NCBI GenBank assembly: GCA_022844205.1 | Contig: JALHMF010000002.1 | Location: forward strand, 124,001-188,000 | Length of the DNA: 64,000 nucleotides | Origin: Xanthobacteraceae bacterium | GTDB lineage: Bacteria > Pseudomonadota > Alphaproteobacteria > Rhizobiales > Xanthobacteraceae | Direction of reading: 5' to 3' | In this document: one piece after another, positions 7,046 through 39,005 of the stretch | Position numbering within the stretch: position 1 is the stretch's first letter | Layout of the letters: every line of letters begins with the position of its first letter | Position numbers and translations under genes: made by a program | Notes under the pieces: generated by a model | The model's database searches: none | Seen by the model: only the letters and a program-made list of their open reading frames with translations | Told to the model about the DNA's origin: nothing

Positions 7046-8092
7046 ATGGTATTCCGCCGCAGCGGCAAGGCCAAGAAGGCCGTCAATCTTGCTTTGCAGG
7101 GTGGCGGCGCGCACGGCGCGTTTACCTGGGGCGTCCTCGACCGGCTGCTCGAAGACGAGCGGCTAACCGTGGAAGGTATTTCGGGCACGAGTGCCGGCGC
7201 CATGAACGCCGTCGTGCTTGCGTCCGGGTATAAATCGGGTGGCCGTGACGGCGCGCGCGAGGCGCTGCAAAAATTCTGGCGCTCGATCTCGCGCGATGGC
7301 CGCATGAACCCCATGCAGCGCAGTCTGATGGACCGCATGCTCGGGAATTGGTCGATGGACCAGAACCCGTTCTTTCTCGCGCTCGACGTCGCCAGCCGAT
7401 TTGTCTCTCCCTACGATTTCAACCCGTTCAAGATCAATCCGCTTCGCGAAATCCTCGAACGCGAAGTGGACTTTGAAGCGGTGCGCGCATGCAAGGACAT
7501 CAAGCTGTTCGTTTCCGCCACAAATGTAAGATCAGGCAAAGCAAAAATCTTTCATACGAATGAAATCACGCCCGATGTCGTCATGGCCTCCGCCTGTCTT
7601 CCGTTCCTGTTCCAGGCGGTGGAGATTGACGGCACGCCTTACTGGGACGGTGGCTATGTCGGCAATCCGCCGCTGTTTCCGTTCTTTCGCAACGCCGGCA
7701 CGCAAGACGTGATCCTCGTGCAGACCAATCCGGTCACGCGGGATGAAATCCCGCAGACCGCCCGCGACATCCTCAATCGCGTCAACGAGATCACCTTTAA
7801 TGCCTCGCTGCTGTCGGAATTTCGCGCGATCGGATTTGTCCGTCGCATGATCGAGCGCGGCTTCATGGGCCGCTGGAGCGGCAATACCGACTACCGGAAC
7901 GTCCGCTTGCATCGCATTGCCGGCGACGACGAACTGACAAAGCTCACATCCAGTTCGAAATTCAACACCGAGTGGCCGTTCTTCCTGCATTTGTGCGATA
8001 TGGGACGAACCACGGCGGAAGTTTTCCTCAAGCGTCACTTCTCGGCCATCGGCAAACGCGGCTCGCTCGATCTGCGCCGCGAGCTTGCCTAG
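7046..8092 (+). CDS. Patatin-like phospholipase/hydrolase
   Basis: A 348-residue patatin-fold serine hydrolase with a Ser-Asp dyad. The oxyanion motif LALQGGGAHGAFTWGVLDRL is at residues 13-32, the nucleophile elbow GISGTSAGAMNAV carries Ser, and DGGYVGNPPLFP carries the Asp. The start is ATG 7046, with a GGGAGG about 17 nt upstream; TTG 7043 is an alternative. No signal peptide is seen, so it probably acts in the cytoplasm. It directly follows bdhA. Patatins include intracellular PHB depolymerases as well as phospholipases, so a role in mobilising 3-hydroxybutyrate is plausible but unproven. Confidence 0.88.
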   Translation: MVFRRSGKAKKAVNLALQGGGAHGAFTWGVLDRLLEDERLTVEGISGTSAGAMNAVVLASGYKSGGRDGAREALQKFWRSISRDGRMNPMQRSLMDRMLGNWSMDQNPFFLALDVASRFVSPYDFNPFKINPLREILEREVDFEAVRACKDIKLFVSATNVRSGKAKIFHTNEITPDVVMASACLPFLFQAVEIDGTPYWDGGYVGNPPLFPFFRNAGTQDVILVQTNPVTRDEIPQTARDILNRVNEITFNASLLSEFRAIGFVRRMIERGFMGRWSGNTDYRNVRLHRIAGDDELTKLTSSSKFNTEWPFFLHLCDMGRTTAEVFLKRHFSAIGKRGSLDLRRELA

Positions 8093-27626: not shown

Positions 27627-29717
27627 CTAACGCAAAGCGTCGGAGAAACTGCCGCCGCTTTCTGCAAGTTTCGAGAGCAAGGGCGCCACTTCCGACCCCA
27701 CACCTCCTACGCGCGCAGCCGCTTCTGCTTCCTGCAGTATCTCTTTGAGACCGATGCGGTCGGCGGCATACATCGGCCCGCCTCTGGCGGCGGGAAAGCC
27801 GTATCCGTTGACGAACACGAGATCGATATCCGATGCGTGCAATGCGATGCCGGCCTGAAGCACCTTCGCGCCTTCGTTTGCCATCGCGGCAATGAGACGG
27901 CGTGAGATTTCCGCATCGGTGAATTTGCGGGGCGTAATTTTCTTCGCGGCGCGCTCGGCTTCCAGATGCTTGACGACTTCGGGATTGGGTACGGGCTGCG
28001 TGCCCTTCTCGTAAACATACCAGCCGCGGCCTGTTTTGCGCCCGAACAACCCTTGCTCGCACAGCCGGTCGGCCACTTCCACATAGCGTTCGTCGGGATG
28101 CCGGGTGGCGGCGCGGCGCTTGCGCATCGCCCAGGCAATGTCGAGACCGGCAAGGTCCGAGACGGCGAACGGCCCCATCGCAAAGCCGAATTTCTCCATC
28201 GCCCGGTCGATTTCCTCCGGCGACGCCCCATCGAGCATCAGGTATTCGGCGTGGCGGCGATAGACCGAGAAAATCCGGTTGCCGATGAAGCCGTCGCAGA
28301 CGCCCGCGACGATGGGGAGTTTTCCGATCCTGCGCGCGATCTCAAGCCCGGTTGCCAAAACATCCGGCGCGGTCTTGGCGCCGCGCACGACCTCAAGAAG
28401 CCGCATGACGTTCGCGGGCGAAAAGAAGTGCAGCCCGACGACTTCCTCGGGGCGCTTGGTCACCGCCGCGATCTGATCGACGTCGAGATAGGAGGTGTTG
28501 GTCGCGAGAATCGCGCCCGGTTTTGCCAGCGTATCGATCTTTCGAAATGCTTCCGTCTTTATGGCAATATCCTCGAACACCGCTTCAATGACGAGATCCG
28601 CCTCGCGCACGAATTCCCAGTCGTCCGTCAGCGCAACCCGAGTCAAGCGCTCGTCCGCCGCTTGCTGCGTGAGCCGCCCCTGCTCGACTTGCCGTTGGTA
28701 GATGGCGCGAATGCGATCCATTCCCGCACCCGCTGCAATCTTGTCGCGTTCGATCACGGTCACTTCATATCGCGCATCCGCGAAGCTTGCCGCGATGCCG
28801 GCGCCCATTGTCCCGGCGCCGAGAATGACGATGCGCTTAATCTCGCGCGGCTTCGCATCGGCGATGCCCGGCACTTTTCGCGATTCCCTTTCGGCGAAAA
28901 ACAGATGCCGCAAGGCTTTGGCTTCGTCGCTCTCGCGCAGCATCAGGAATGCTTCGCGCTCGTTCTGCACGGCCTGATCGAACGGCACATGCTCGCTTTG
29001 GCGGATGGTTTCGATGGCAACTTCGATGTTTTTCGATCCGCGCGATTTCTTGGTAGCGGCGGCGGCGGCAGCCGAAATTTCGTCCGCCGTCGAACACACC
29101 AGTGGCGATTTTGACAGGCGGCGTTTTGGCAGACGGGTTGCAATCAGTTTTGCTTCCGCCAGCAAGTCACCGTAAACAATCGCGTCGATCATGCCGAGTG
29201 AGAGCGCCTCGTTTGCTTTCAGTCTTTTACCTTCTGTGATGAGTTCAATTGCTTTCGCGACTCCGACAAGTCGCGGAAGCCGCTGTGTGCCGCCGGCACC
29301 CGGAATGATGCCGAGTTTCGTTTCCGGCAAACCGACGACGGCGTTCGCTGCCGCCAGCCGATAATCGCACGCAAGCGCGAATTCGTAACCGCCGCCGAGC
29401 GTTGAACCTTTCAGAGCCGCCACAATTGGTTTCCCGCACTTCTCCATTTCCAGAATGACGTCCGGCAAGGATGGTGGAATCGGCGGCAATGACATTTCCT
29501 TCAGATCAGCACCCGCGATGAAATCGCTGCCCGCGCCGGTGATAACAATTGCCTTAACTGCGGAGTCCGAAGCCAGTTCGCAAAACGCCGCGAGCAGGCC
29601 ATCGCGAACCGGTGTGGAAAGTGCGTTGACCGGTGGATTGTCGATCGTCACGACCGCGATCTGCCCGTCGCGCACAATTTTTACAGGCGGCGCAGGTGGG
29701 GTTTTCATGACGGGCAT
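27627..29717 (-). CDS. fadB: Bifunctional enoyl-CoA hydratase/3-hydroxyacyl-CoA dehydrogenase
   Basis: A 696-residue FadB/FadJ-like protein. The N-terminal crotonase domain (about 10-190) has GSDFIAGADLKEMS, LKGSTLGGGYEFALACDYRL and LPETKLGIIPGAGGTQRLP with the catalytic Glu. The dehydrogenase begins near residue 300 with VILGAGTMGAGIAASFADA; LHFFSPANVMRLLEVV, GFIGNRIFSVYRRHAEYLM and the FGRKTGRGWYVYEKG segment complete it. The likely role here is beta-oxidation of 3,4-dehydroadipyl-CoA through 3-hydroxyadipyl-CoA. It is transcribed in the same direction as livK but 216 bp upstream of it. ATG 29717 and ATG 29708 are both possible starts. Confidence 0.92.
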   Translation of the reverse strand: MPVMKTPPAPPVKIVRDGQIAVVTIDNPPVNALSTPVRDGLLAAFCELASDSAVKAIVITGAGSDFIAGADLKEMSLPPIPPSLPDVILEMEKCGKPIVAALKGSTLGGGYEFALACDYRLAAANAVVGLPETKLGIIPGAGGTQRLPRLVGVAKAIELITEGKRLKANEALSLGMIDAIVYGDLLAEAKLIATRLPKRRLSKSPLVCSTADEISAAAAAATKKSRGSKNIEVAIETIRQSEHVPFDQAVQNEREAFLMLRESDEAKALRHLFFAERESRKVPGIADAKPREIKRIVILGAGTMGAGIAASFADARYEVTVIERDKIAAGAGMDRIRAIYQRQVEQGRLTQQAADERLTRVALTDDWEFVREADLVIEAVFEDIAIKTEAFRKIDTLAKPGAILATNTSYLDVDQIAAVTKRPEEVVGLHFFSPANVMRLLEVVRGAKTAPDVLATGLEIARRIGKLPIVAGVCDGFIGNRIFSVYRRHAEYLMLDGASPEEIDRAMEKFGFAMGPFAVSDLAGLDIAWAMRKRRAATRHPDERYVEVADRLCEQGLFGRKTGRGWYVYEKGTQPVPNPEVVKHLEAERAAKKITPRKFTDAEISRRLIAAMANEGAKVLQAGIALHASDIDLVFVNGYGFPAARGGPMYAADRIGLKEILQEAEAAARVGGVGSEVAPLLSKLAESGGSFSDALR

Positions 29718-29757
29718 TCGTTGAGCGCCGATATAAGGACCTGCGCTTGGGCCGGCT

Positions 29758-30474
29758 TTACTGGCCGTAACAAAAGTTGTTGTTCGCGCAACGGGACTGG
29801 CCCAGCGAATTGATCAGCGTGGAAAGGTCGAGCGTTCCGTTGAACACATATTGCATCGACCGCTCGTTGAAGAAATCCATCTTGTAAGGACCCTGCAATC
29901 CGGTTGAGGTCGAATAGGTGATCGCGTCGCCGGCATTCAGCGTGAACGTCTTGCCGCCGAAATTGATCACGATTGAGCCTTGCGGCACGAAGAACACGGC
30001 CCAGTACACGCCCGGCGAAAGCTGCTTCACGATCCAGTGGATCACGGTGCCACGAACGCCGATGGTGGCGACCGGCGTGCGGATTTCATACGCGGTCGAT
30101 TTTTGCGCGCCACTCACAAAACGGAATGCTCCGACGCCCGCATTGACCACGACCTTTCCGTTTCCGCGATTGGGGTCGTACACGAAACGGTCCAGCACCA
30201 CTTCGGACTGCGCGCCGACACTGAGCGTCGTCTGGTCGAGGAAGAGAAACTGCGCGGTACTGGCCGCACCGGTTCGAATACGTTCGTTAGCGGACACATC
30301 GCTGCCATTCGAGAGCGCGCGCTGCGCGCCGCCCTGAACGCCTGCGACTTCGTTGCGGACGGCGGAAGCCACGCCGATTTTCTGGGCGGATGCTTCCCCC
30401 GCGAAGGCAGCGAGCGAGGCGGCCACGAATGCGGCTGCAAACATACCTGCGAGAATTCTGGAGACTGTGTTCAT
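29758..30474 (-). CDS. Secreted FecR-domain protein
   Basis: A 238-residue exported protein. Residues 1-31 form a signal peptide (ILAGMFAAAFVAASLAAFAG, cut near ASA-QKIG). The mature part carries a FecR domain: IRTGAASTAQFLFLDQTTLS, the LDRFVYDPNRGNGKVVVNAG repeat and YEIRTPVATIGVRGTVIHW (the most conserved FecR block). The C-terminal tail holds two cysteines (RCANNNFC) that may form a disulphide. Unlike FecR of iron signalling there is no anti-sigma or membrane domain, and no sigma factor or TonB receptor is near. It is divergent from the TPR/beta-barrel gene over 141 bp and belongs with the CHASE2 cyclase cluster (inference). Confidence 0.85.
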   Translation of the reverse strand: MNTVSRILAGMFAAAFVAASLAAFAGEASAQKIGVASAVRNEVAGVQGGAQRALSNGSDVSANERIRTGAASTAQFLFLDQTTLSVGAQSEVVLDRFVYDPNRGNGKVVVNAGVGAFRFVSGAQKSTAYEIRTPVATIGVRGTVIHWIVKQLSPGVYWAVFFVPQGSIVINFGGKTFTLNAGDAITYSTSTGLQGPYKMDFFNERSMQYVFNGTLDLSTLINSLGQSRCANNNFCYGQ

Positions 30475-30615
30475 GGCGCAACGATCCTATGCTTTTGCCG
30501 GTCCAATTTGAAGAGTGTCCGGTACCGCCCGGTCCCTTCGCGGCTGGCGCGCAAATCACCCCTATGCTTTATTTCGGCGAATCTCAATTGGCCGCGTTTT
30601 CGGGGTTTTTGGGCC

Positions 30616-31776
30616 GTGAAGTCTGCTGCAAAATTCTGTTTTTTTGTGATCGTCCTGCTGGTGGCAACCGTCACCCTTGCATCGGCGGACGAGCTTGCGC
30701 GCCTGAACGCGGGAATCATGCGCGACCCGAACAATGTTGAATTGAACCTGCGTTACGCCCAGGCCTCCGAGGATGCCGGACAGCCGGAAAAGGCGCTGGC
30801 CGCCTATGAGCGCGTGCTCGATCTCGATCCCGCCAACCTGCCGGCCCGCCTCGGGATCATCCGCGCAACCAAGGGTGTGCTGCCGAACATCACGCAGGTT
30901 TTTCTTGAATACGGCGCCGCCTGGGAATCCAACCCTCGCCGGGTGAACGGCGGCAGCGGCAGCGATTTCCTTCTGTTGGGCCGCGCGATGATCAAGGACG
31001 ACCGCACGCTTGGAACGACGCGCTGGCGCACGATCGGCAATCTTGCCGGACAGGTTTACTTCGACAACGGCGACCTCAGCTATGGCTATGCCGGAGGCGA
31101 GACCGGCCCGCTGATTTTCCTGAGTGACAAATTATTCGTGCACGCGGCCGTCGGCGCCGCGGGCGCCTACTTCGATCATCGCGCGCTGTACGGCGAAGCA
31201 TCCGCGAGCCTCACCTTCGAGAATGTTCCGACCGGGGCCTACAGCAACAGCCTGCGGCTGCGCGGCGGCTATCGCCAATACGACAGCCACTTCCCGGTTA
31301 CTGAAGGGCCGTTCGCGGAAGCGATCTGGAAGTTCTCCGCCATCGGCCTGTTCGGCGACGACGCATTCCTGTTCGCGCCGTTCTATCGCTGGAGCGACAT
31401 TCCGGGCACTGCGTTCTCGATCATCAACGCAGAACCGTTGCAACCGGGCCGCTTCAATGAAGTCGGCCTGCGCACGGAATATTACCGCAAGGTCTTGCCG
31501 GCCGCGAGCCTCGGCGGCACCTTGACGATTGCCCATCGCGATTACAGCAAGGCCTTCGACCCGTTGGCGGGGGTGGACTCGAAGCGCGAGGAATTGCTGA
31601 TCGTTCCGGGTGCTGCGCTGATCTTGCATCAGTTCCTGAACAGCCGCACCGACCTTCGCTTCGACTATCGCTTCGAACACCGTGACCTGAAGATCAAGAC
31701 CGATCCTCCGGGTCCGGTTGCCTCGGAGGATTTCAGGAACCACGTCGTCACGATGACGTTCCAGACGCGCTACTAA
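30616..31776 (+). CDS. TPR plus outer-membrane beta-barrel protein
   Basis: A 386-residue protein. I place the start at GTG 30616, where a signal peptide follows (FCFFVIVLLVATVTLASA, cut before DELAR). Residues about 25-95 hold at least two TPR-like helices pairs (NVELNLRYAQASEDAGQPEK, then ALAAYERVLDLDPANLPARL). From about 110 on the sequence is strongly alternating and aromatic (QVYFDNGDLSYGYAGG, SLRLRGGYRQYDSHF, LRFDYRFEHRDLKIK) and ends in VTMTFQTRY, a C-terminal aromatic typical of barrels inserted by BamA. The layout recalls Slam-like secretion proteins (DUF560) but I see no decisive motif. Function unknown; the divergent FecR gene suggests a surface partnership. Confidence 0.75.
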   Translation: MKSAAKFCFFVIVLLVATVTLASADELARLNAGIMRDPNNVELNLRYAQASEDAGQPEKALAAYERVLDLDPANLPARLGIIRATKGVLPNITQVFLEYGAAWESNPRRVNGGSGSDFLLLGRAMIKDDRTLGTTRWRTIGNLAGQVYFDNGDLSYGYAGGETGPLIFLSDKLFVHAAVGAAGAYFDHRALYGEASASLTFENVPTGAYSNSLRLRGGYRQYDSHFPVTEGPFAEAIWKFSAIGLFGDDAFLFAPFYRWSDIPGTAFSIINAEPLQPGRFNEVGLRTEYYRKVLPAASLGGTLTIAHRDYSKAFDPLAGVDSKREELLIVPGAALILHQFLNSRTDLRFDYRFEHRDLKIKTDPPGPVASEDFRNHVVTMTFQTRY

Positions 31777-31808
31777 AAAACGCGGGCTTCTTTCAAAATC
31801 CGTTCTGA

Positions 31809-32201
31809 TCAGAGCCCCGCAGCAAACGCAAGCGCGGCTGCCATCGCCAGATAGCTCAACTGGTGAAGTCCCTGGTCGGCGCCAAACGTCCACCAGTATT
31901 CAGCCTGTGGAAATTTCAGGCGTTTGCGCTTGACGGTCTGCTCTTTCAACCAGTCGATGTGATAGTGCGCGAGAAATTCGCCCAGCATGATCGCAGTGGC
32001 GGCCAGCCAGCCCGGCTGAATAACATAGAAGATCGGCGTCGATGTAAGCGTATGCAGGCCGGCGTGAATGATGCCGCCGGGATGCCCGTACTTGCCCTTG
32101 TTCATAAACTGATAGGGCGTTTGCAAAACGAAATCGCACAAAAAATGCTTGAGCTGGAGGATCAGCAGCACCGCCAGCAGCAATTTGACATCTTGGCTCA
32201 C
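31809..32201 (-). CDS. DUF3307-like small membrane protein
   Basis: A 130-residue protein. I choose GTG 32201, preceded by AGGAGAAGG at about 10 nt; a longer frame from 32267 has a non-hydrophobic and atypical start. Conserved-looking blocks are LKHFLCDFVLQTPYQFMNKG, then GIIHAGLHT and AHYHIDWLKEQ, and the C-terminal YWWTFGADQGLHQLSYLAMA. This spacing of histidines and acidic residues in membrane helices matches what I recall of DUF3307. Three or four membrane segments are visible. It is 66 bp downstream of the cyclase on the same strand, so it may be cotranscribed with it. Function unknown. Confidence 0.75.
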   Translation of the reverse strand: MSQDVKLLLAVLLILQLKHFLCDFVLQTPYQFMNKGKYGHPGGIIHAGLHTLTSTPIFYVIQPGWLAATAIMLGEFLAHYHIDWLKEQTVKRKRLKFPQAEYWWTFGADQGLHQLSYLAMAAALAFAAGL

Positions 32202-32267
32202 AGAACGTCCTTCTCCTCCGCAAATCGCTCCGGATGGCAGTTCACATTTCCAAAGTGAAGCTGGCAA

Positions 32268-34484
32268 CTACTTTTCATGGGCTGTGTATACGCCGTCCCA
32301 GTTTTCGGGAGGCGGGTCAGCCTTGAAGGCCGCAATCCGCGACAGGAACAGCGAATAATAATGCTCCATTCGCGCGATCCCGAGGCTGCGGCATTCTGCA
32401 ATCGCGGCCTCGGCCTTGGCCCATTGCTGCGCCCGGAAATGTTCCAGGAATTCATTATGCGTATGCCGCAGATGCGCGGCTTTGCTCTCATCGGCGTCGA
32501 GCAAATTGCTGAAAGTGTAAATCGGTGACGGACGGCCGCGGCCCTTCACCCGTACGAAATCGAGTTCGAGCGCTGCAAAACCCCGCATCTCGTTGACCGT
32601 TCGTTCGCCGACGATTGCGGTCAGTCCATAGGCTTTGGACAATCCTTCGAAGCGGGAGGCTACGTTCACCTCGTCACCGATCGCCGAATAGTCGAAGCGC
32701 TGCAGGGAGCCGAGATTGCCGACACAGCAGCGGCCGGTATTGATGCCGATGCCGATGCTCACGCGCGGAAACGGCCGACCCGCCGCATCGGCTTCCTTCT
32801 GCCAGTAATCGTTGAGAGCGGCCATGCGCGCGGCCATATCGATCGCCGAGCGGCAGGCTTGTGTCGCATGTTCTGGCTCGTCGAGTGGCGCGTTCCAGAA
32901 CGCCATAATCGCATCACCCATGTATTTATCGATGGTACCGCGATGGGAAAGGATGATGTCCGTGAGCGGTGTGAGCAGTTCGTTGATGAACCTGGTCAGA
33001 TCGTGCGCGGACAGGCCTTCCGAGATCGTCGTGAAGTTGCGCACATCGCAGAACAAAAGCGTCAGTTCCCGCTCCTCGCCGCCAAGCTCGAGCTTTTCCG
33101 GATTGGCGAGCAGTTCGTTCACCACCGCCGGCGCGACATACCGGCTGAACGCGCCGCGGATTTCGCCGCGCTGAACCTCCACCCGCCGGTACACATAGAA
33201 AGTTGCGGCGGCGACAAGAAATAAAAGTGCCAGTGCGGGAAAAACAGGATCGAGCAGCAGGCCGAAGCGGCTGTAAGCGATCCAGCCGCCAAGCAGCAGA
33301 ATCGAAATCGCCGAGAGTCCAATCAGTGCCGCCGTATGCGCGGACACCCGGTAAAGTGCCAGTCCGAGCAGCAAACCGAACAGCACGATCACGAATTGCT
33401 CGATGGTGTAGGCGTAATCGGGCCGTGTCAGGAATTCGCCTGACAGCACATGTTCGATCGACTGCGCGATGATCTCGACGCCGGCGATCGATGAATCGAG
33501 TGGCGTGGCCCGAAGGTCGAGCAGGCCCGGCGCGCTGGTGCCGACCAGCATGATGCGCCCCTCGATCTCATCCCTTGGAATTTCACCGGCCAGCAGTTTC
33601 CAGACCGGAATATAAGAATCCGGTTTGCTCGGCCGGAATTTGAGCCAGATGCCGCCGTCCGGGTCCGTGGGAATTTCCAGCGAGCCAACGCGAATGTGAT
33701 TCAGACCGGTCGTTTGTCCGAAGGCGGTCTCCCCGCTCGCATTCGATGCCTTCAGCAGAAACGAAGAGGCGCCCTGCGCGACACGCAGCGCCTCGGCGAA
33801 CAAGGCCGGCACGAACTGATCGCCGACCCGGTACACAAGCCCGACGCGGCGCAGGACCTGGTCGCGGTCGGGCCGCCAGTTAATTGAACCGATGCCGGTT
33901 GCGGCATCCTCGAACAATTTGAGGTTGCCGGCTCCGGTGGTAAACGGCGGAATGAACGGACGCGGATCGTCGCCCGCAAACGAGAAGCCCGCCTTCATCT
34001 TCGTGCCGAAACTTCCCTCGCCGCCCGCAAGCGCGATCGCAAGAATGCTGGGCACCTGTTTCAACGCGGCCGCGAACACTTCATCGTTTGTCTGCTGGCC
34101 GGCGATGATCGGCTGAATCCTTGCCGCCTGATCCTGCGGCAGGCGTCTCATTACTTCTTCAAGCGATGTGCGGTCCGGCTCCGAGAACTGAACGTCGAAG
34201 GCTACGGCGGCGGCACCCTGCTCGCGCAGTCTGTCCACAAGATCGCGCATGACGGTGCGCGGCCACGGCCATTGGCCAAGCATGGCGAGCGAGCGTTCGT
34301 CGATATCGACGATCCGCACGGGCACCGACGGATCGTATTCGCGGGGCGCCAGGCGTTGATAGGTATCGAAGCCGATCAGCCGCAGCCCCTGGATGGCAAA
34401 GGGATCGGCATGGCGGATCAAGAGCGCTCCCGCGATCACCGTCCCCACCAGCAGCGCGTAAAATCCGGTCGCGCGAACAACCAT
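32268..34484 (-). CDS. CHASE2-domain class III adenylate/guanylate cyclase
   Basis: A 738-residue membrane sensor cyclase. A first helix (residues 7-23) is followed by a large extracytoplasmic CHASE2 domain (about 25-335; DTYQRLAPREYDPSVPVRIV, ERSLAMLGQWPWPR) and three membrane helices (about 350-440). The cytoplasmic class III cyclase domain keeps every catalytic element: metal Asp in LLFCDVRNFT, Lys and second metal Asp in IDKYMGDAIMAFW, and the base- and transition-state residues in DYSAIGDEVNVASRFE. The Asp at the base-recognition position favours ATP, so cAMP is the likely product. ATG 34484. It is divergent from the antiporter with a cyclic-nucleotide-binding domain, 227 bp away. Confidence 0.92.
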   Translation of the reverse strand: MVVRATGFYALLVGTVIAGALLIRHADPFAIQGLRLIGFDTYQRLAPREYDPSVPVRIVDIDERSLAMLGQWPWPRTVMRDLVDRLREQGAAAVAFDVQFSEPDRTSLEEVMRRLPQDQAARIQPIIAGQQTNDEVFAAALKQVPSILAIALAGGEGSFGTKMKAGFSFAGDDPRPFIPPFTTGAGNLKLFEDAATGIGSINWRPDRDQVLRRVGLVYRVGDQFVPALFAEALRVAQGASSFLLKASNASGETAFGQTTGLNHIRVGSLEIPTDPDGGIWLKFRPSKPDSYIPVWKLLAGEIPRDEIEGRIMLVGTSAPGLLDLRATPLDSSIAGVEIIAQSIEHVLSGEFLTRPDYAYTIEQFVIVLFGLLLGLALYRVSAHTAALIGLSAISILLLGGWIAYSRFGLLLDPVFPALALLFLVAAATFYVYRRVEVQRGEIRGAFSRYVAPAVVNELLANPEKLELGGEERELTLLFCDVRNFTTISEGLSAHDLTRFINELLTPLTDIILSHRGTIDKYMGDAIMAFWNAPLDEPEHATQACRSAIDMAARMAALNDYWQKEADAAGRPFPRVSIGIGINTGRCCVGNLGSLQRFDYSAIGDEVNVASRFEGLSKAYGLTAIVGERTVNEMRGFAALELDFVRVKGRGRPSPIYTFSNLLDADESKAAHLRHTHNEFLEHFRAQQWAKAEAAIAECRSLGIARMEHYYSLFLSRIAAFKADPPPENWDGVYTAHEK

Positions 34485-34711
34485 ATCCCGGTCCCCGTTC
34501 CGTGAAGGACGTTACACACCCGGCAGAATGAAGCGAAGTCCCGGCGCCGGCCGGAGGATACCGCAAGTGTAGACGTTAATGGGCATTTCAATGCGCCATG
34601 GCGGAACAATCGCCTTGCGATTGGCGCGCGCACTTCATAACAATGGAGCCGGGTTGTGCGGTCGAACGGCGCCGGTCATCTGCCGCGCCAGGCAAAGCAA
34701 ACGCGGGGAAT

Positions 34712-36439
34712 ATGGAACACGAGACAACGCTCATCGTCACGATCGTGATGAGCCTGGTACTCGCCTTCTCGTTCGGGTTCGTCGCGACCTGGCTGAAGCT
34801 GCCGCCGCTTGTCGGATATCTCGTCGCCGGCATCGCAGTCGGCCCGTACACGCCCGGATTTGTCGTTGACGCCGGGTTGGCCAGTCAGCTCTCAGAAATC
34901 GGTGTCATCCTGCTGATGTTCGGCGTCGGGCTTCATTTTTCCGCGACCGACCTCCTCACGGTGAAGTGGGTCGCGATTCCCGGAGCGATCGTTCAAATCA
35001 CCGTCGTCACCACGATCGGAGTCCTGGTTGCAACCAGCTGGGGATGGAGCTTCGGCACGGCACTCGTGCTCGGTCTCTGTATGTCGGTCGCAAGTACGGT
35101 TGTGCTGCTGAAGGCGCTGGACGAGCGCAACCTGGTCAACTCTGCGAACGGACGCATCGCGATCGGCTGGCTGATCGTGGAAGACCTCGTCATGGTGCTC
35201 GTTCTCGTCCTGCTACCCGCGCTCGCGGGGATGCTGGGCGGCAAGACCGCCCAGGCGAACGGAATGCTGGACGGCAATCTGGCGCTCTCCATCCTGTTCA
35301 CGCTCGGAAAAGTAGGCGCCTTCGGCGCAATCGTTTTCCTGTTCGGTCCCCGCCTGGTGCCCTGGCTTTTGGGGCGCGCGGCCCGAACCGGCTCGCACGA
35401 ACTGTTCACGCTCTCCGTCCTCGCAGTGGCGCTCGGAATTGCCTTCGCGGCCTCCAAGGTATTCGACGTCTCCTTTGCGCTCGGCGCCTTCTGCGCGGGC
35501 GTCGTGCTTTCCAAATCCGACTTCAGCCATCGCGCCGCGGAGGAATCGCTGCCGCTGCAAAATGCCTTTGCGGTCCTTTTCTTTGTTTCGGTCGGAATGT
35601 TGTTCGACCCCTCGATCCTGATTCGGGAGCCACTGCATGTGCTGGCAGTGTTGGGCGTGATCCTGATCGGCAAATCCGTCACGGCCTTCTCGCTCGCGTT
35701 GATACTTGGCATGCCGGCCGGAAGTGCGCTGACCATTGCAGCGGGTCTCGCTCAGATTGGTGAGTTTTCCTTCATTCTCGCGGGGCTGGGGATGACGCTC
35801 GGTTTGCTGCCATCCGAGGGCAAGGATCTCATCCTCGCGGGCGCACTGCTGTCGATCACGCTGAATGCGCTGGCATTCACCGCCGTGAAGCCGCTGACGT
35901 TGTGGTTCAGCACCAAATTCCCGTTGACCGCGCGTGGAGAACCTGCGCGGCGCGAGCGGCTCGCTTCCCTGCAAAAAAAGCTTTCCGCGGCGAGCAAGCA
36001 AGCGCAGCCGGTCAATCTCAGCCTGCAGCCCGGCGAGATGATGAACAAGTTTCCGGTCTTTGCGAGCCTCAACCCGATTCAGCGCGCGGAACTGCTCGCA
36101 CTCTTCAAGCCACGTTCGGCGGCACCGGGCGAACGCGTGATCCGTGCGGGCGATGTGGCGAACGAAATGTTCTTCATCTCTTCAGGCGCGGTCGAAGTAT
36201 CGGTTGGCTCGCAAACCATCCATCTCGGACCAGGCGATTTCTTCGGCGAGATGGCGCTGCTCAGCGGCGGACGCCGCAGCGCCGACGTGACGGCAATCGA
36301 CTACTGCCTGTTCCTGACCCTCGACGTAAAGGACTTCCGGGATTTCATCGGTCGCCATCCCGAGCTGAAAACGACGCTGGACGAAGTCGCCCGCCAGCGC
36401 GCCGAAATGAACAAGCGGGAGACCGAACAGAACGCCTGA
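34712..36439 (+). CDS. KefB-type cation:proton antiporter with C-terminal cyclic-nucleotide-binding domain
   Basis: A 575-residue protein. About 12 membrane segments fill residues 8-405 (VATWLKLPPLVGYLVAGIAV, LIVEDLVMVLVLVLLPAL, FDVSFALGAFCAGVVLSKSD), the CPA2 Na+/H+ exchanger fold of KefB/YbaL. The usual RCK (TrkA-N) NAD domain is missing. After a linker, residues about 440-560 form a cyclic-nucleotide-binding domain: NEMFFISSGAVEVSVG, then a phosphate cassette GPGDFFGEMALLSGGRRSADV with the ribose-contacting Glu and phosphate-contacting Arg. ATG 34712 follows GGGGAA. Divergent placement from an intact cyclase suggests cAMP gating of ion exchange. Confidence 0.88.
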   Translation: MEHETTLIVTIVMSLVLAFSFGFVATWLKLPPLVGYLVAGIAVGPYTPGFVVDAGLASQLSEIGVILLMFGVGLHFSATDLLTVKWVAIPGAIVQITVVTTIGVLVATSWGWSFGTALVLGLCMSVASTVVLLKALDERNLVNSANGRIAIGWLIVEDLVMVLVLVLLPALAGMLGGKTAQANGMLDGNLALSILFTLGKVGAFGAIVFLFGPRLVPWLLGRAARTGSHELFTLSVLAVALGIAFAASKVFDVSFALGAFCAGVVLSKSDFSHRAAEESLPLQNAFAVLFFVSVGMLFDPSILIREPLHVLAVLGVILIGKSVTAFSLALILGMPAGSALTIAAGLAQIGEFSFILAGLGMTLGLLPSEGKDLILAGALLSITLNALAFTAVKPLTLWFSTKFPLTARGEPARRERLASLQKKLSAASKQAQPVNLSLQPGEMMNKFPVFASLNPIQRAELLALFKPRSAAPGERVIRAGDVANEMFFISSGAVEVSVGSQTIHLGPGDFFGEMALLSGGRRSADVTAIDYCLFLTLDVKDFRDFIGRHPELKTTLDEVARQRAEMNKRETEQNA

Positions 36440-36487
36440 ATCCTAGCCGTTTACGCTCTCCCGGATTCGTCCTAGCATCCGTCATCC

Positions 36488-37561
36488 ATGCGGGGGCGTT
36501 GGATGCGTTTGTTCGGTGGTTTCCTTGCCGCTTGCTGTGCGGCTTTCGGATTGGCGGCCAGTGCCGCCGAAGTCGAACGTCCGCCGCAATTCATTGTTTT
36601 TTCCTACGACAACTGCACCGAACTCGACCGCTGGCGCGAGCTGATTTCCTTTTCAGAGGAAATGAACCGCGACAGCCCGCGCGTGCATTTCACGTTCTTC
36701 GTCAGCGGCACGAATTTCCTCGCCGACAGAAAGCGCCATATTTATTCCGGTCCGCGCAATCCGGCGGGCGCTTCGAAAATCAATTTTGGTGGCCCGCCTG
36801 AAGACATCCGCGCCCGTATCGAACTCATCAATCGCGCGCACGGGGACGGCCATGAAATTGCTTCCCACGCCGTCGGACATTTTGACGGGCGCCAGTGGTC
36901 GGCGGCCGACTGGTCGCAGGAATTCAGTATCCACCGTTCGCTGTTCCAGAACATCGCGCGCAACAACGAGCTGGAGGATTCAGCTTCGTTTGCATTTCCG
37001 GCGGCCGAGGTCGCCGGCTTTCGCGCGCCCTATCTCAGCACCAGTCCCGGCCTGTTCGAGGCCATGCGCGAAAGCAAGTTCGCCTATGATGCGAGCGGCG
37101 TCGGTCACGCGCATGAATGGCCGGACAAAAAGGACGGCATCTGGCGTTTCAATCTAGCAAGCCTGCGGATCGCCGGCTCAGGCAAGATGACGTTGTCGAT
37201 GGATTATAATTTTTACGTCGCTCAGTCCGGCGCATTTAACAATCCTTCGCAACACGCTTTGTTTCGCGAGCAGATGCAATCGACTTACATGAATTACCTG
37301 CGCGCCAATTACACAGGGAACCGCGCGCCCGTTCACATCGGGCATCATTTCTCGACGTTCCAGGGCGGGATTTACAATCAGGCGCTGCTCGCCTTCGCCC
37401 GCACCGTTTGCGGCTTGCCGGAGGTGAAATGTGTGACTTACACGAAACTTGTGCAGTTCATGGAGAGTCTCGATCCCGAGAGGCTCGCCGCCTATCGCAA
37501 GGGTGAATTCCCGCGCGCCACATTCCCGGCTTTCGACCTGGTACGGGCAAGCACGCAATAA
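36488..37561 (+). CDS. Secreted polysaccharide deacetylase-family protein
   Basis: A 357-residue protein. A signal peptide occupies about residues 1-27 (FGGFLAACCAAFGLAASAA); ATG 36488 and ATG 36503 are both possible starts. The CE4 NodB-type motifs can be followed: SYDNCTELDRW (general base Asp), HEIASHAVGHFDG (metal-binding S-H-x-x-x-H type) and AGFRAPYLST, so the metal site looks intact. It differs from common peptidoglycan or chitin deacetylases in the long C-terminal part (VHIGHHFSTFQGGIYNQ and a CGLPEVKC pair). It starts 48 bp after the antiporter and converges with the TetR gene. The substrate is unknown. Confidence 0.85.
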   Translation: MRGRWMRLFGGFLAACCAAFGLAASAAEVERPPQFIVFSYDNCTELDRWRELISFSEEMNRDSPRVHFTFFVSGTNFLADRKRHIYSGPRNPAGASKINFGGPPEDIRARIELINRAHGDGHEIASHAVGHFDGRQWSAADWSQEFSIHRSLFQNIARNNELEDSASFAFPAAEVAGFRAPYLSTSPGLFEAMRESKFAYDASGVGHAHEWPDKKDGIWRFNLASLRIAGSGKMTLSMDYNFYVAQSGAFNNPSQHALFREQMQSTYMNYLRANYTGNRAPVHIGHHFSTFQGGIYNQALLAFARTVCGLPEVKCVTYTKLVQFMESLDPERLAAYRKGEFPRATFPAFDLVRASTQ

Positions 37562-37565
37562 CCGT

Positions 37566-38144
37566 TCAGCTTTCCTTCACGCTCTCGATCGTCTGCACCA
37601 TCATCGCTACAGCGGCGTTCTGCTCGAGGCCGGCCTGCTGAACCAGCGTTCGCCAGGTGAAGAAGCTTAATGCCAGCCGCAGCATCGCCCGCTGCTTCAC
37701 GTTCAGCTTTGCACCGAGCACCTCGTTCCAGACTTTCATGACTGGGCCGAAGCGAAGCGTGCTGATCTCCTTGGTCAACGGATGGATTTCGGCGTCGCGC
37801 AATACATTGGACAACCGCGAAGCGTTTCGTTCAAACCAGCCATAAATCGCGCTCAGCCCCGCCGTCAGCCTTTCGTTTGTATTGGCAATGTCCCTCCATG
37901 CCGCCGCATCCGGCGGCGGAAAAAGCTCTGCCGTGTGTCCCGAGCAAGCCATCAGCAGGCTGCGCTCGTCCGGGAAATGAGCATAGAGCGTGTGCCGCTG
38001 AACGCCCGCGCGCTCGGCGACCATGCTTATGTTCGTTTGCGCCGGCCCTATGGTGCTGTGCAGTTCGACGGCGGCCTCGACAATGCGCTGCCGCGTCTCA
38101 GCCTGCTGCTCCGCCCGGCGCTTCTGATGATAGGTCCGTGCCAT
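37566..38144 (-). CDS. TetR/AcrR-family transcriptional regulator
   Basis: A 192-residue TetR-family repressor. The N-terminal helix-turn-helix reads TRQRIVEAAVELHSTIGPAQ, then TNISMVAERAGVQRHTLYAHF, with the recognition helix at about residues 41-55. The C-terminal ligand domain (about 70-190) is not recognisable to me. It is divergent from the metallo-beta-lactamase-fold gene, and the 108-bp gap contains a long inverted repeat that is probably its operator. The convergent deacetylase ends 4 bp away. Autorepression together with control of the neighbouring enzyme is likely; the inducer is unknown. Confidence 0.92.
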   Translation of the reverse strand: MARTYHQKRRAEQQAETRQRIVEAAVELHSTIGPAQTNISMVAERAGVQRHTLYAHFPDERSLLMACSGHTAELFPPPDAAAWRDIANTNERLTAGLSAIYGWFERNASRLSNVLRDAEIHPLTKEISTLRFGPVMKVWNEVLGAKLNVKQRAMLRLALSFFTWRTLVQQAGLEQNAAVAMMVQTIESVKES

Positions 38145-38163
38145 GTCAATTTAGATACACTAC

Positions 38164-38207
38164 TATGTGCAATGAATATTGACAAGTCCTAAATTTCATT
38201 GCACATA
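38164..38207. promoter_or_regulatory. Inverted-repeat operator between TetR and MBL-fold genes
   Basis: TATGTGCAATGAA (38164-38176) and its exact reverse complement TTCATTGCACATA (38195-38207) are separated by 18 bp. A plus-strand -35 TTGACA (38179-38184) lies inside the repeat, with a possible -10 over 38202-38207, so repressor binding would cover the promoter of the MBL-fold gene; a minus-strand TTGTCA lies on the same bases. Thirteen matched bases in each arm is a strong palindrome for two TetR dimers or one cooperative pair. Confidence 0.75.
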
Positions 38208-38252
38208 TCTGTTCTACTAAATTTAAGGCCTCAAACCCACAGGAGAACTGTC

Positions 38253-39005
38253 ATGGAAACCAAAGTCGCTGAAATCGCCGATGGCATTTACCGCCTCTCG
38301 ACCTATGTGCCGGAGATCGCAGCCCCCGCCGGCCTCGCCTTCAACCAGTTTCTCATCCTCGGCGATGAGCCGCTGATGTTCCACACCGGCCTGCGCAAGA
38401 TGTTCCCGCTCAACCTCGAGGCGGTGCGCAAGATCATCCCGCCGGAGAAATTGCGCTGGATCACCTTCGGCCATTACGAGGCCGACGAATGCGGCGCCAT
38501 GAACGAATGGCTCAAGGTGGCGCCGAATGCGGAAATCGCTCACGGCCAGACCGGCGTCATGGTCTCCCTGAACGACATGTCGGACAAGGCGCCGCGTGTG
38601 TTGCAGGATGGGGAGGTCGTCGACATCGGCGGCAGGCGCGTCCGCTACATCGACACGCCTCACACGCCGCACGGCTGGGACGCCGGCGTTGTGTATGAAG
38701 AATCGACCGGCACGCTGCTGGTGGGCGATCTGTTCACCCAGCTCGGTGATCGCCCCGCGTTGATCCACGGCGGCGACATCGTCACTCCCGCCATGGAAGC
38801 CGAAAACATCTTCCAGTACTCGGCGCTGAATCCGGGCATGGGCGCGACGATCCGCTCGCTCGCGAAGTTCGCGCCGAAGACGCTGGCCCTCATGCACGGG
38901 CCGTCTTTTGCGGGGGACGGTGCGGCGGCGCTGCATGCGCTCGCCAATGAATACGACAACCGTCTGGCAAACCGCGTGCCGGTTGCGATCAAGAATGCGG
39001 CCTGA
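38253..39005 (+). CDS. Metallo-beta-lactamase-fold protein with flavodiiron-type (ODP) ligands
   Basis: A 250-residue MBL-fold protein, ATG 38253 with GGAG 7 nt upstream. In place of the usual HxHxDH motif it has FGHYEADECGA, the H-x-E-x-D arrangement of flavodiiron oxygen reductases and ODP-type oxygen sensors. Further ligands are probably in AHGQTG (His), VGDLFTQLGDRP (bridging Asp) and ALMHGPSF (His). No flavodoxin domain follows, so it would need a partner to act as a reductase; an oxygen- or NO-sensing role is also possible. The adjacent TetR regulator probably controls it. An ordinary hydrolase activity cannot be excluded. Confidence 0.85.
   Translation: METKVAEIADGIYRLSTYVPEIAAPAGLAFNQFLILGDEPLMFHTGLRKMFPLNLEAVRKIIPPEKLRWITFGHYEADECGAMNEWLKVAPNAEIAHGQTGVMVSLNDMSDKAPRVLQDGEVVDIGGRRVRYIDTPHTPHGWDAGVVYEESTGTLLVGDLFTQLGDRPALIHGGDIVTPAMEAENIFQYSALNPGMGATIRSLAKFAPKTLALMHGPSFAGDGAAALHALANEYDNRLANRVPVAIKNAA

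Follow-up and report, generated by a model that had tools for sequence, protein, structure and literature searches.

A 64,000-nucleotide stretch of contig JALHMF010000002.1 from a Xanthobacteraceae bacterium (positions 124,001 to 188,000; hereafter the window, with coordinates counted from its first letter) carries, back to back, the gene of a membrane receptor that joins a CHASE2 sensor domain to a class III nucleotide cyclase and the gene of a cation/proton exchanger that ends in a cyclic nucleotide-binding (CNB) domain. From domains, conserved residues, predicted folds, gene order, the association with CNB genes and the change of CNB partner among relatives, we hold with moderate confidence that the locus encodes a trans-envelope relay that works through cyclic AMP (cAMP) and has the ion exchanger as local output. 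Across the order, CNB genes lie near CHASE2 cyclases more often than in control stretches of the same genomes.

The cyclase gene (32268..34484, minus strand) encodes a 738-residue protein in which Pfam recognises the CHASE2 domain at residues 21-375 (33360..34424, minus strand; PF05226, 186 bits) and the catalytic domain at residues 473-651 (32532..33068, minus strand; PF00211, Guanylate_cyc, 67.3 bits). The exchanger gene (34712..36439, plus strand, 575 residues from its likely start) comprises a transmembrane domain at 34757..35878 (plus strand; PF00999, Na_H_Exchanger, 173.5 bits) and a CNB domain at 36113..36358 (plus strand; PF00027, cNMP_binding, 69.4 bits). The positions of the open reading frames (ORFs) and the Pfam matches bear out an earlier note on this DNA, which had located both genes here and described them as divergent. 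The longest exchanger ORF starts at 34598; since the homologues begin at the methionine at 34712, the latter is probably the start, which leaves a divergent intergenic region of 227 bp (34485..34711), the very gap given in the earlier note.

Compared with solved class III enzymes, the cyclase domain looks intact. The metal aspartates (in FCDVRNF and KYMGD) align with those of 3r5g (CyaB) and 1wc0, as do the purine-site lysine and the asparagine and arginine of VNVASR. To this extent the claim that all class III catalytic residues are kept stands, the exception being the purine-site threonine, conservatively replaced by serine (see below). The domain would then be a complete class III (IIIb-like) cyclase with one conservative change, and its product would be cAMP, cyclic GMP (cGMP) being less likely.

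By its sequence the exchanger belongs to the CPA2 cation/proton antiporters. Its best NCBIfam model is YbaL (521 bits against a cut-off of 700), and a YbaL-like CPA2 identity scores far better than the KefB type first proposed for it. The aspartate of its VEDL motif aligns with Asp156 of KefC (in an alignment to KefC and its Asp156Asn variant), so that the protein shares with the KefC/YbaL antiporters both the transmembrane family and the transport aspartate. Its AlphaFold model (pLDDT 79.8) retrieved KefC first in Foldseek, followed by NapA, SOS1 and SLC9C1, with the CNB domain of MloK1 at rank 46. What sets it apart from KefC, YbaL and KefB proper, besides a score below the YbaL cut-off, is the tail: Pfam lists no TrkA_N (RCK) domain, and the genome also encodes a paralogue, 51% identical across the membrane portion, that does carry TrkA_N, which argues that the tail truly differs.

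In place of the RCK domain stands, as had been read from the sequence, a CNB domain with a complete phosphate-binding cassette (FGEMALLSGGRRSADV, 36242..36289, plus strand). Residues F511, G512, E513, R522 and A524 of the cassette, which aligns with those of PKA and PKG, do not vary among the 27 proteins aligned, that of the window included. The domain resembles the CNB domains of HCN, SthK, MloK1 and PKG/PKA, and structures of HCN, MloK1 and SLC9C1 were matched by CNB sequence or fold, several of them containing a bound cyclic nucleotide. As the cassette residues are invariant in the 27 proteins, ligand binding has probably been retained, and the tail would bind cAMP. In joining a membrane ion transporter to a CNB domain at the C-terminus, the protein recalls the MloK1-type bacterial K+ channels, the difference being that MloK1 is a channel and the window protein an exchanger. 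It also recalls SLC9C1, the sperm Na+/H+ exchanger, which likewise combines a CPA exchanger with a CNB domain and is matched by Foldseek. SLC9C1 is eukaryotic and has a voltage-sensor domain between exchanger and CNB, whereas the window exchanger is closer to KefC and lacks the sensor: only 78 residues separate its Pfam exchanger and CNB matches (427 and 506), and there is no channel-type domain among the Pfam matches. This spacer is too short for a voltage sensor, and the exchanger is thus not of the SLC9C type.

In the source genome (3.17 Mb, 98% complete), the CHASE2 cyclase of the window is the one Guanylate_cyc match over the Pfam cut-off; a second match is partial and falls under it (21.1 bits, cut-off 21.9), and no class I cyclase was matched. 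Nine genes encode CNB domains, namely seven Crp/Fnr-like regulators with a C-terminal helix-turn-helix, one short soluble CNB protein and the exchanger, which is the only membrane protein among them (read by eye). Four other genomes of the genus were searched, and the pair is present in two of them: G003 has the same divergent genes (71% and 69% identity), and in G002 the exchanger is cut by the contig end. In G004 (68% complete) another CNB protein stands opposite the cyclase (71%); G001 (80% complete) gave neither cyclase nor exchanger at E 1e-30. With nine CNB genes and one class III cyclase per 3.17 Mb, adjacent again in two congeners, the adjacency of cyclase and exchanger is more than chance.

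The association was then counted at 118 CHASE2-cyclase loci of one order, drawn from 112 genomes (two loci each in six of them), a CHASE2 cyclase being recognised by homology to the window protein or to alignment A2 over most of its length rather than by Pfam. A CNB ORF lies within ~5 kb at 31 of these loci against one of 40 controls (Fisher p 0.0005, with loci treated as independent though the genomes are related), and the 31 are spread over nine families of the order. FecR-type ORFs (60/118 loci; 38/80 in a first set and 22/38 in a second), relatives of the tetratricopeptide repeat (TPR)-barrel protein of the window (41/118; 30/80 and 11/38) and DUF3307 genes (18/118; 15/80 and 3/38) were each found at 0/40 controls. 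CNB-positive loci number 24 of 80 in the first set and 7 of 38 in the second. The first 80 loci hold 31 CNB ORFs in 890 kb, whereas the density of PF00027 matches in 49 of the genomes (counted at E up to 1e-5, over rounded genome sizes) predicts ~2.4, and at 13 of these loci the CNB ORF lies within 300 bp of the cyclase or overlaps it (stop-to-stop ORFs). The controls were 40 stretches of 20 kb (800 kb) from the same contigs as 40 loci; the test stretches measured ~12 kb or less (890 kb for the 80 loci, 450 kb for the 38). The sole control CNB ORF (L260:3995-7535, in the congener G003) adjoins two class III-like cyclase ORFs.

The first 80 loci were picked without knowledge of their neighbours: 54 are all the hits with E up to 1e-120 besides the window's own (three are partial), and the other 26 come from the upper part of the ranked list, at roughly one per genus, some genera contributing more than one. 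The second set deliberately includes G342 and G395, from the genus of L238, and without both its CNB count becomes 5/36; it also contains L322, which shares its genus with the CNB-positive L230. An early motif scan for the CNB cassette gave mostly out-of-frame noise and pointed to L037 and L062; hidden Markov models (HMMs) were used instead. For CNB and cyclase the training set consisted of the first 80 cyclase loci, 23 loci of CPA2-CNB fusions and the window; the HMMs for FecR, barrel and DUF3307 were iterated on a set that included the 40 controls. The second set and the Pfam checks are thus the cleaner tests. In these checks 19 of the 31 first-set CNB ORFs and 4 of 8 in the second set were scanned, and all passed the PF00027 cut-off (19/19 and 4/4).

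The CNB protein beside the cyclase is not always the same. A CPA2 exchanger is the partner in the window and at L172. In another family, a CPA1-type exchanger with a CNB tail is encoded 0.9 kb away from the CHASE2 cyclase in three of three sampled genomes of one genus, two of which were fetched because of the first (L304:1521-4082, L305:1520-4039 and L238:8072-10627, with FecR and barrel genes alongside; the CPA1 label is by reading, Pfam giving Na_H_Exchanger). The best single argument for a functional exchanger pairing is that two different exchanger families occur with one and the same type of cyclase. At L238, a metallo-beta-lactamase-fold hydrolase (7223-8068) stands between cyclase and exchanger. 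Other CHASE2 cyclases have nearby CNB proteins of the ion-channel type (L200, L203, L218, L241), SulP carriers with STAS and CNB domains (L177:8534-10771, L232:2655-4970 and, by likeness and not Pfam, L231:3185-4555), an ABC protein (L241), CNB-SpoIIE phosphatases close to both cyclase and DUF3307 (L333:7856-9238, L335:8566-9885), Crp-type proteins (L212; L319 by reading) or short soluble CNB proteins. In the window's own family the membrane CNB partner seen most often in the first 80 loci is a small protein with a membrane N-terminus and a CNB domain (L171 (6226-7002), L174, L191, L196, L202, L208, L209 and others, grouped by eye), a layout that we take to be Popeye-like; a YgjV match was seen for the L196 protein only, just under the cut-off. 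A glutaminase fused to STAS and CNB domains was also observed 1.6 kb from a CHASE2 cyclase (L213:8694-10565).

Three further genes of the window, encoding FecR-domain, TPR-barrel and DUF3307 proteins, are also part of the neighbourhood, and we therefore rejected a two-gene unit. The FecR-domain protein (29758..30474, minus strand, 238 residues; Pfam FecR, 44.9 bits) has an N-terminus that reads like a signal peptide and is predicted to be the periplasmic link. The TPR and outer-membrane barrel protein (30616..31776, plus strand, GTG start likely) is identified by TPR matches, its AlphaFold model and Foldseek: the model (pLDDT 88.3) shows helices and then 14 long strands, and outer-membrane porins, CymA and OmpG among them, match it best, with modest TM-scores. 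The DUF3307 gene (31809..32267, minus strand; Pfam, 38.9 bits) lies directly behind the cyclase gene on the same strand. DUF3307 is also found behind the cyclase on the Paracoccus plasmid pAMI5, where the order is CNB-patatin, TPR protein, FecR, CHASE2-type cyclase and DUF3307; the CNB-patatin phospholipase next to this set is at L301:197-2086. Relatives of the window barrel were found beside cyclases on Paracoccus and Shinella plasmids.

A comparable arrangement occurs on pSymB of Sinorhizobium meliloti, where an ORF of 1227 residues (L300:2705-6385) with FecR and TPR domains by Pfam directly precedes a CHASE2-type cyclase, so classed by its blastp match to the window protein and not by Pfam. 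The C-terminal half of this ORF reads barrel-like; Pfam finds no domain there. The two genes may well be nsrA and cyaK, the former of which lies just upstream of the latter in S. meliloti, and the ORF would combine in one fused protein what the window encodes as separate FecR and barrel proteins. The window barrel as a sequence homologue of the pSymB ORF was considered and rejected, as neither blastp nor the barrel HMM matched (see below).

The input side is of a known kind, since it resembles both the S. meliloti pathway and a cluster of Campylobacterota. According to passages of PMC13001267 and PMC7529298, the S. meliloti CHASE2 cyclases CyaD1, CyaD2 and CyaK raise cAMP, with sensing via the outer-membrane protein NsrA, and the Crp-type CNB regulator Clr responds to this cAMP (so also part of PMC5498481). 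Passages of PMC5498481 further place clr (SMc02175), cyaD1 (SMc02176) and smc02178 close together and give SMc02177 a FecR domain; by its number, smc02177 would be in the same place. The window and the NsrA-CyaK/CyaD1-Clr system thus have in common a CHASE2 cyclase, an outer-membrane barrel, FecR and TPR proteins and a CNB output. They differ in that the S. meliloti output is the transcription factor Clr whereas the adjacent output in the window is an ion exchanger, and, if the pSymB ORF is taken as NsrA, in that the FecR and barrel proteins of the window are separate and its barrel is not detectably homologous. In Campylobacterota, a CHASE2 cyclase clusters with FecR and TPR genes and a cAMP phosphodiesterase, as sections of a 2022 paper describe (PMC9239204); this cluster belongs to another phylum, has the phosphodiesterase, and no CNB neighbour is mentioned in those sections. 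In magnetotactic bacteria, a CHASE2-cyclase-like gene follows the TPR protein gene mtxA, according to part of PMC4439547. The open literature, from which subscription papers were mostly missing, yielded among the papers listed no described bacterial cyclase-antiporter circuit, in agreement with the earlier note, and no described CHASE2-cyclase/CNB-transporter neighbourhood; this is weak evidence of absence. For a cyclase beside the MloK1 gene, the papers listed likewise offered nothing of use. In the searched portion of the text of a 2007 CNB survey (PMC2246266), the words 'antiporter', 'exchanger' and 'cyclase' were not found. The parts are already known; what is new is the output side, where the CNB partner changes.

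In the relay that we favour, the TPR protein with its 14-strand outer-membrane barrel and the periplasmic FecR-domain protein would sense a signal outside the cell and hand it to the receptor in the inner membrane through its periplasmic CHASE2 domain, and the cytoplasmic cyclase dimer of this receptor would make cAMP (less likely cGMP). The cAMP would bind the CNB tail of the divergently encoded CPA2 exchanger and release the tail's inhibitory grip; cation (probably K+)/H+ exchange would thereby be switched, and cytoplasmic pH and ion content would change without new transcription. The CNB output would act as a plug-in, relatives retaining the receptor and swapping the CNB partner. That cAMP activates the exchanger rather than inhibiting it is our guess, made by analogy with KefC (RCK) and the CNB channels, in which the tail restrains and the ligand releases. 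The two-part cAMP circuit suggested from the sequence alone remains the best reading, both ends looking intact, the cyclase being the sole class III enzyme over the cut-off and CNB genes being enriched beside such cyclases; its restriction to two genes is given up.

Several observations weigh against this relay. The second purine-site residue of the cyclase is a serine where 3r5g and 1wc0 have threonine, the residue of the IIIb signature of class III cyclases at this position; all eight aligned proteins (that of the window and seven relatives) have serine there. No CNB ORF lies within ~5 kb at 87 of the 118 loci, some flanks being truncated where a contig stops, and 26 of the first 80 lack all four partner types over that distance. 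The neighbourhood of CPA2-CNB exchanger and cyclase was found in one genus only. A scan of named genomes for CPA2-CNB proteins, of which the best 80 of at least 594 pattern matches were considered, gave 23 full-length proteins, and a class III cyclase is absent from the flanks of all 23 loci (up to 6 kb a side, less at contig ends), as are FecR and barrel ORFs. On the input side, the window barrel gave no blastp match to the FecR-TPR ORF of pSymB (E up to 1e-3), and the barrel HMM had no hit (E up to 0.01) in the pSymB stretch carrying it; moreover, the results of PMC5498481 did not support a role of the S. meliloti FecR protein SMc02177 in shoot-signal perception. Finally, S. meliloti has 28 annotated class III cyclases according to part of PMC13001267, so that cAMP in relatives need not act locally.

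The 23 loci show, over the flanks covered, that the CPA2-CNB fusion is common and independent of a cyclase neighbour, and we rejected a widely conserved CPA2-CNB/cyclase pair on their account. The fusion is common in Rhizobium, Phyllobacterium and others: among the matches listed, full-length hosts include Rhizobium, Mesorhizobium, Phyllobacterium, Roseomonas and Vineibacter, together with bins labelled Niveispirillum, Burkholderiales, Chthoniobacterales, Opitutus and others, and in a plasmid collection 17 of 101 records matching the exchanger span at least 80% of the query. Conservation of the neighbourhood, which the earlier note had proposed as a check, thus holds inside the genus (G003, G002) and fails at these 23 loci elsewhere.

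Bacterial cAMP has mostly been studied through Crp-type transcription factors, and the cyclase may mainly feed such regulators, as CyaD1, CyaD2 and CyaK do with Clr. The exchanger would then be one more protein that reads a global cAMP pool, and its position close to the cyclase would be incidental or a matter of shared regulation. We consider this unlikely, while giving it real weight: the source genome does have Crp/Fnr-like CNB proteins, S. meliloti offers a precedent (in passages of PMC5498481 and PMC13001267), the 23 CPA2-CNB loci manage without a nearby cyclase and some CHASE2 cyclases have the Crp-type neighbours named above. A global pool accords less well with the neighbours as a whole. 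Most of those at the first 80 loci are proteins other than transcription factors, a membrane CNB protein occurs at 16 of the 24 CNB-positive first-set loci (by sequence reading and Pfam; for L171 and L209, two of the 16, a crude scan of hydropathy showed no segment), and CPA1-CNB exchangers are separately paired with a CHASE2 cyclase.

The CNB tail might instead be a structural or regulatory module that binds another ligand or no cyclic nucleotide, with no cAMP circuit despite the adjacency. Some CNB-fold domains bind no cyclic nucleotide, and the cassette of the window protein has an aspartate (RRSADV) where the aligned PKA and PKG domains have threonine or serine. The invariant glutamate and arginine of the cassette in the 27 aligned proteins, the sequence and fold matches to HCN, MloK1 and SLC9C1, several nucleotide-bound, and the enrichment of CNB genes beside cyclases all speak against such a tail and make it, in our judgement, quite improbable. 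Least probable of all is an association that results from the way genomes are organised (signalling or envelope islands) and not from a functional circuit: the 26 of the first 80 loci without any of the four gene types and the relatedness of the sampled genomes, whose loci are not independent, would suit it, but the CNB neighbours are of different protein classes in nine families, lie within 300 bp of the cyclase or overlap it at 13 of the 80 loci, and have one counterpart in 800 kb of same-genome controls.

Downstream of the exchanger, a polysaccharide deacetylase-like gene (36488-37561; 20.9 bits, below the Pfam cut-off) follows after 48 bp on the same strand, possibly on one transcript with it. 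Sigma-70-like sites were absent from 29500-36700 (0 against 1.7 expected in shuffles) and an Rfam scan of 29000-38500 gave 0 matches, both results being little informative for such a bacterium.

The repeated placing of a receptor cyclase beside CNB-tailed transporters and channels provides concrete pairs for probing a possible fast control of ion transport by cAMP. The same pairs bear on the cellular cues of bacterial CNB channels and exchangers and on signalling from the outer membrane to an inner-membrane cyclase; with one class III cyclase over the cut-off and one membrane CNB protein, the source genome makes a clean test case. Tentatively, we propose that Alphaproteobacteria may possess a modular trans-envelope cassette, made of an outer-membrane TPR-barrel, a periplasmic FecR protein and a CHASE2 cyclase, with interchangeable CNB outputs, many of them acting at membranes (two exchanger families, K+ channels, SulP carriers, a small membrane CNB protein and an ABC protein) besides SpoIIE phosphatases and a phospholipase. 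In this genus, the cassette would form a cAMP circuit from receptor to exchanger that adjusts ion and proton balance without transcription. If this is true, it would be a bacterial counterpart of the second-messenger-gated transport of sperm.

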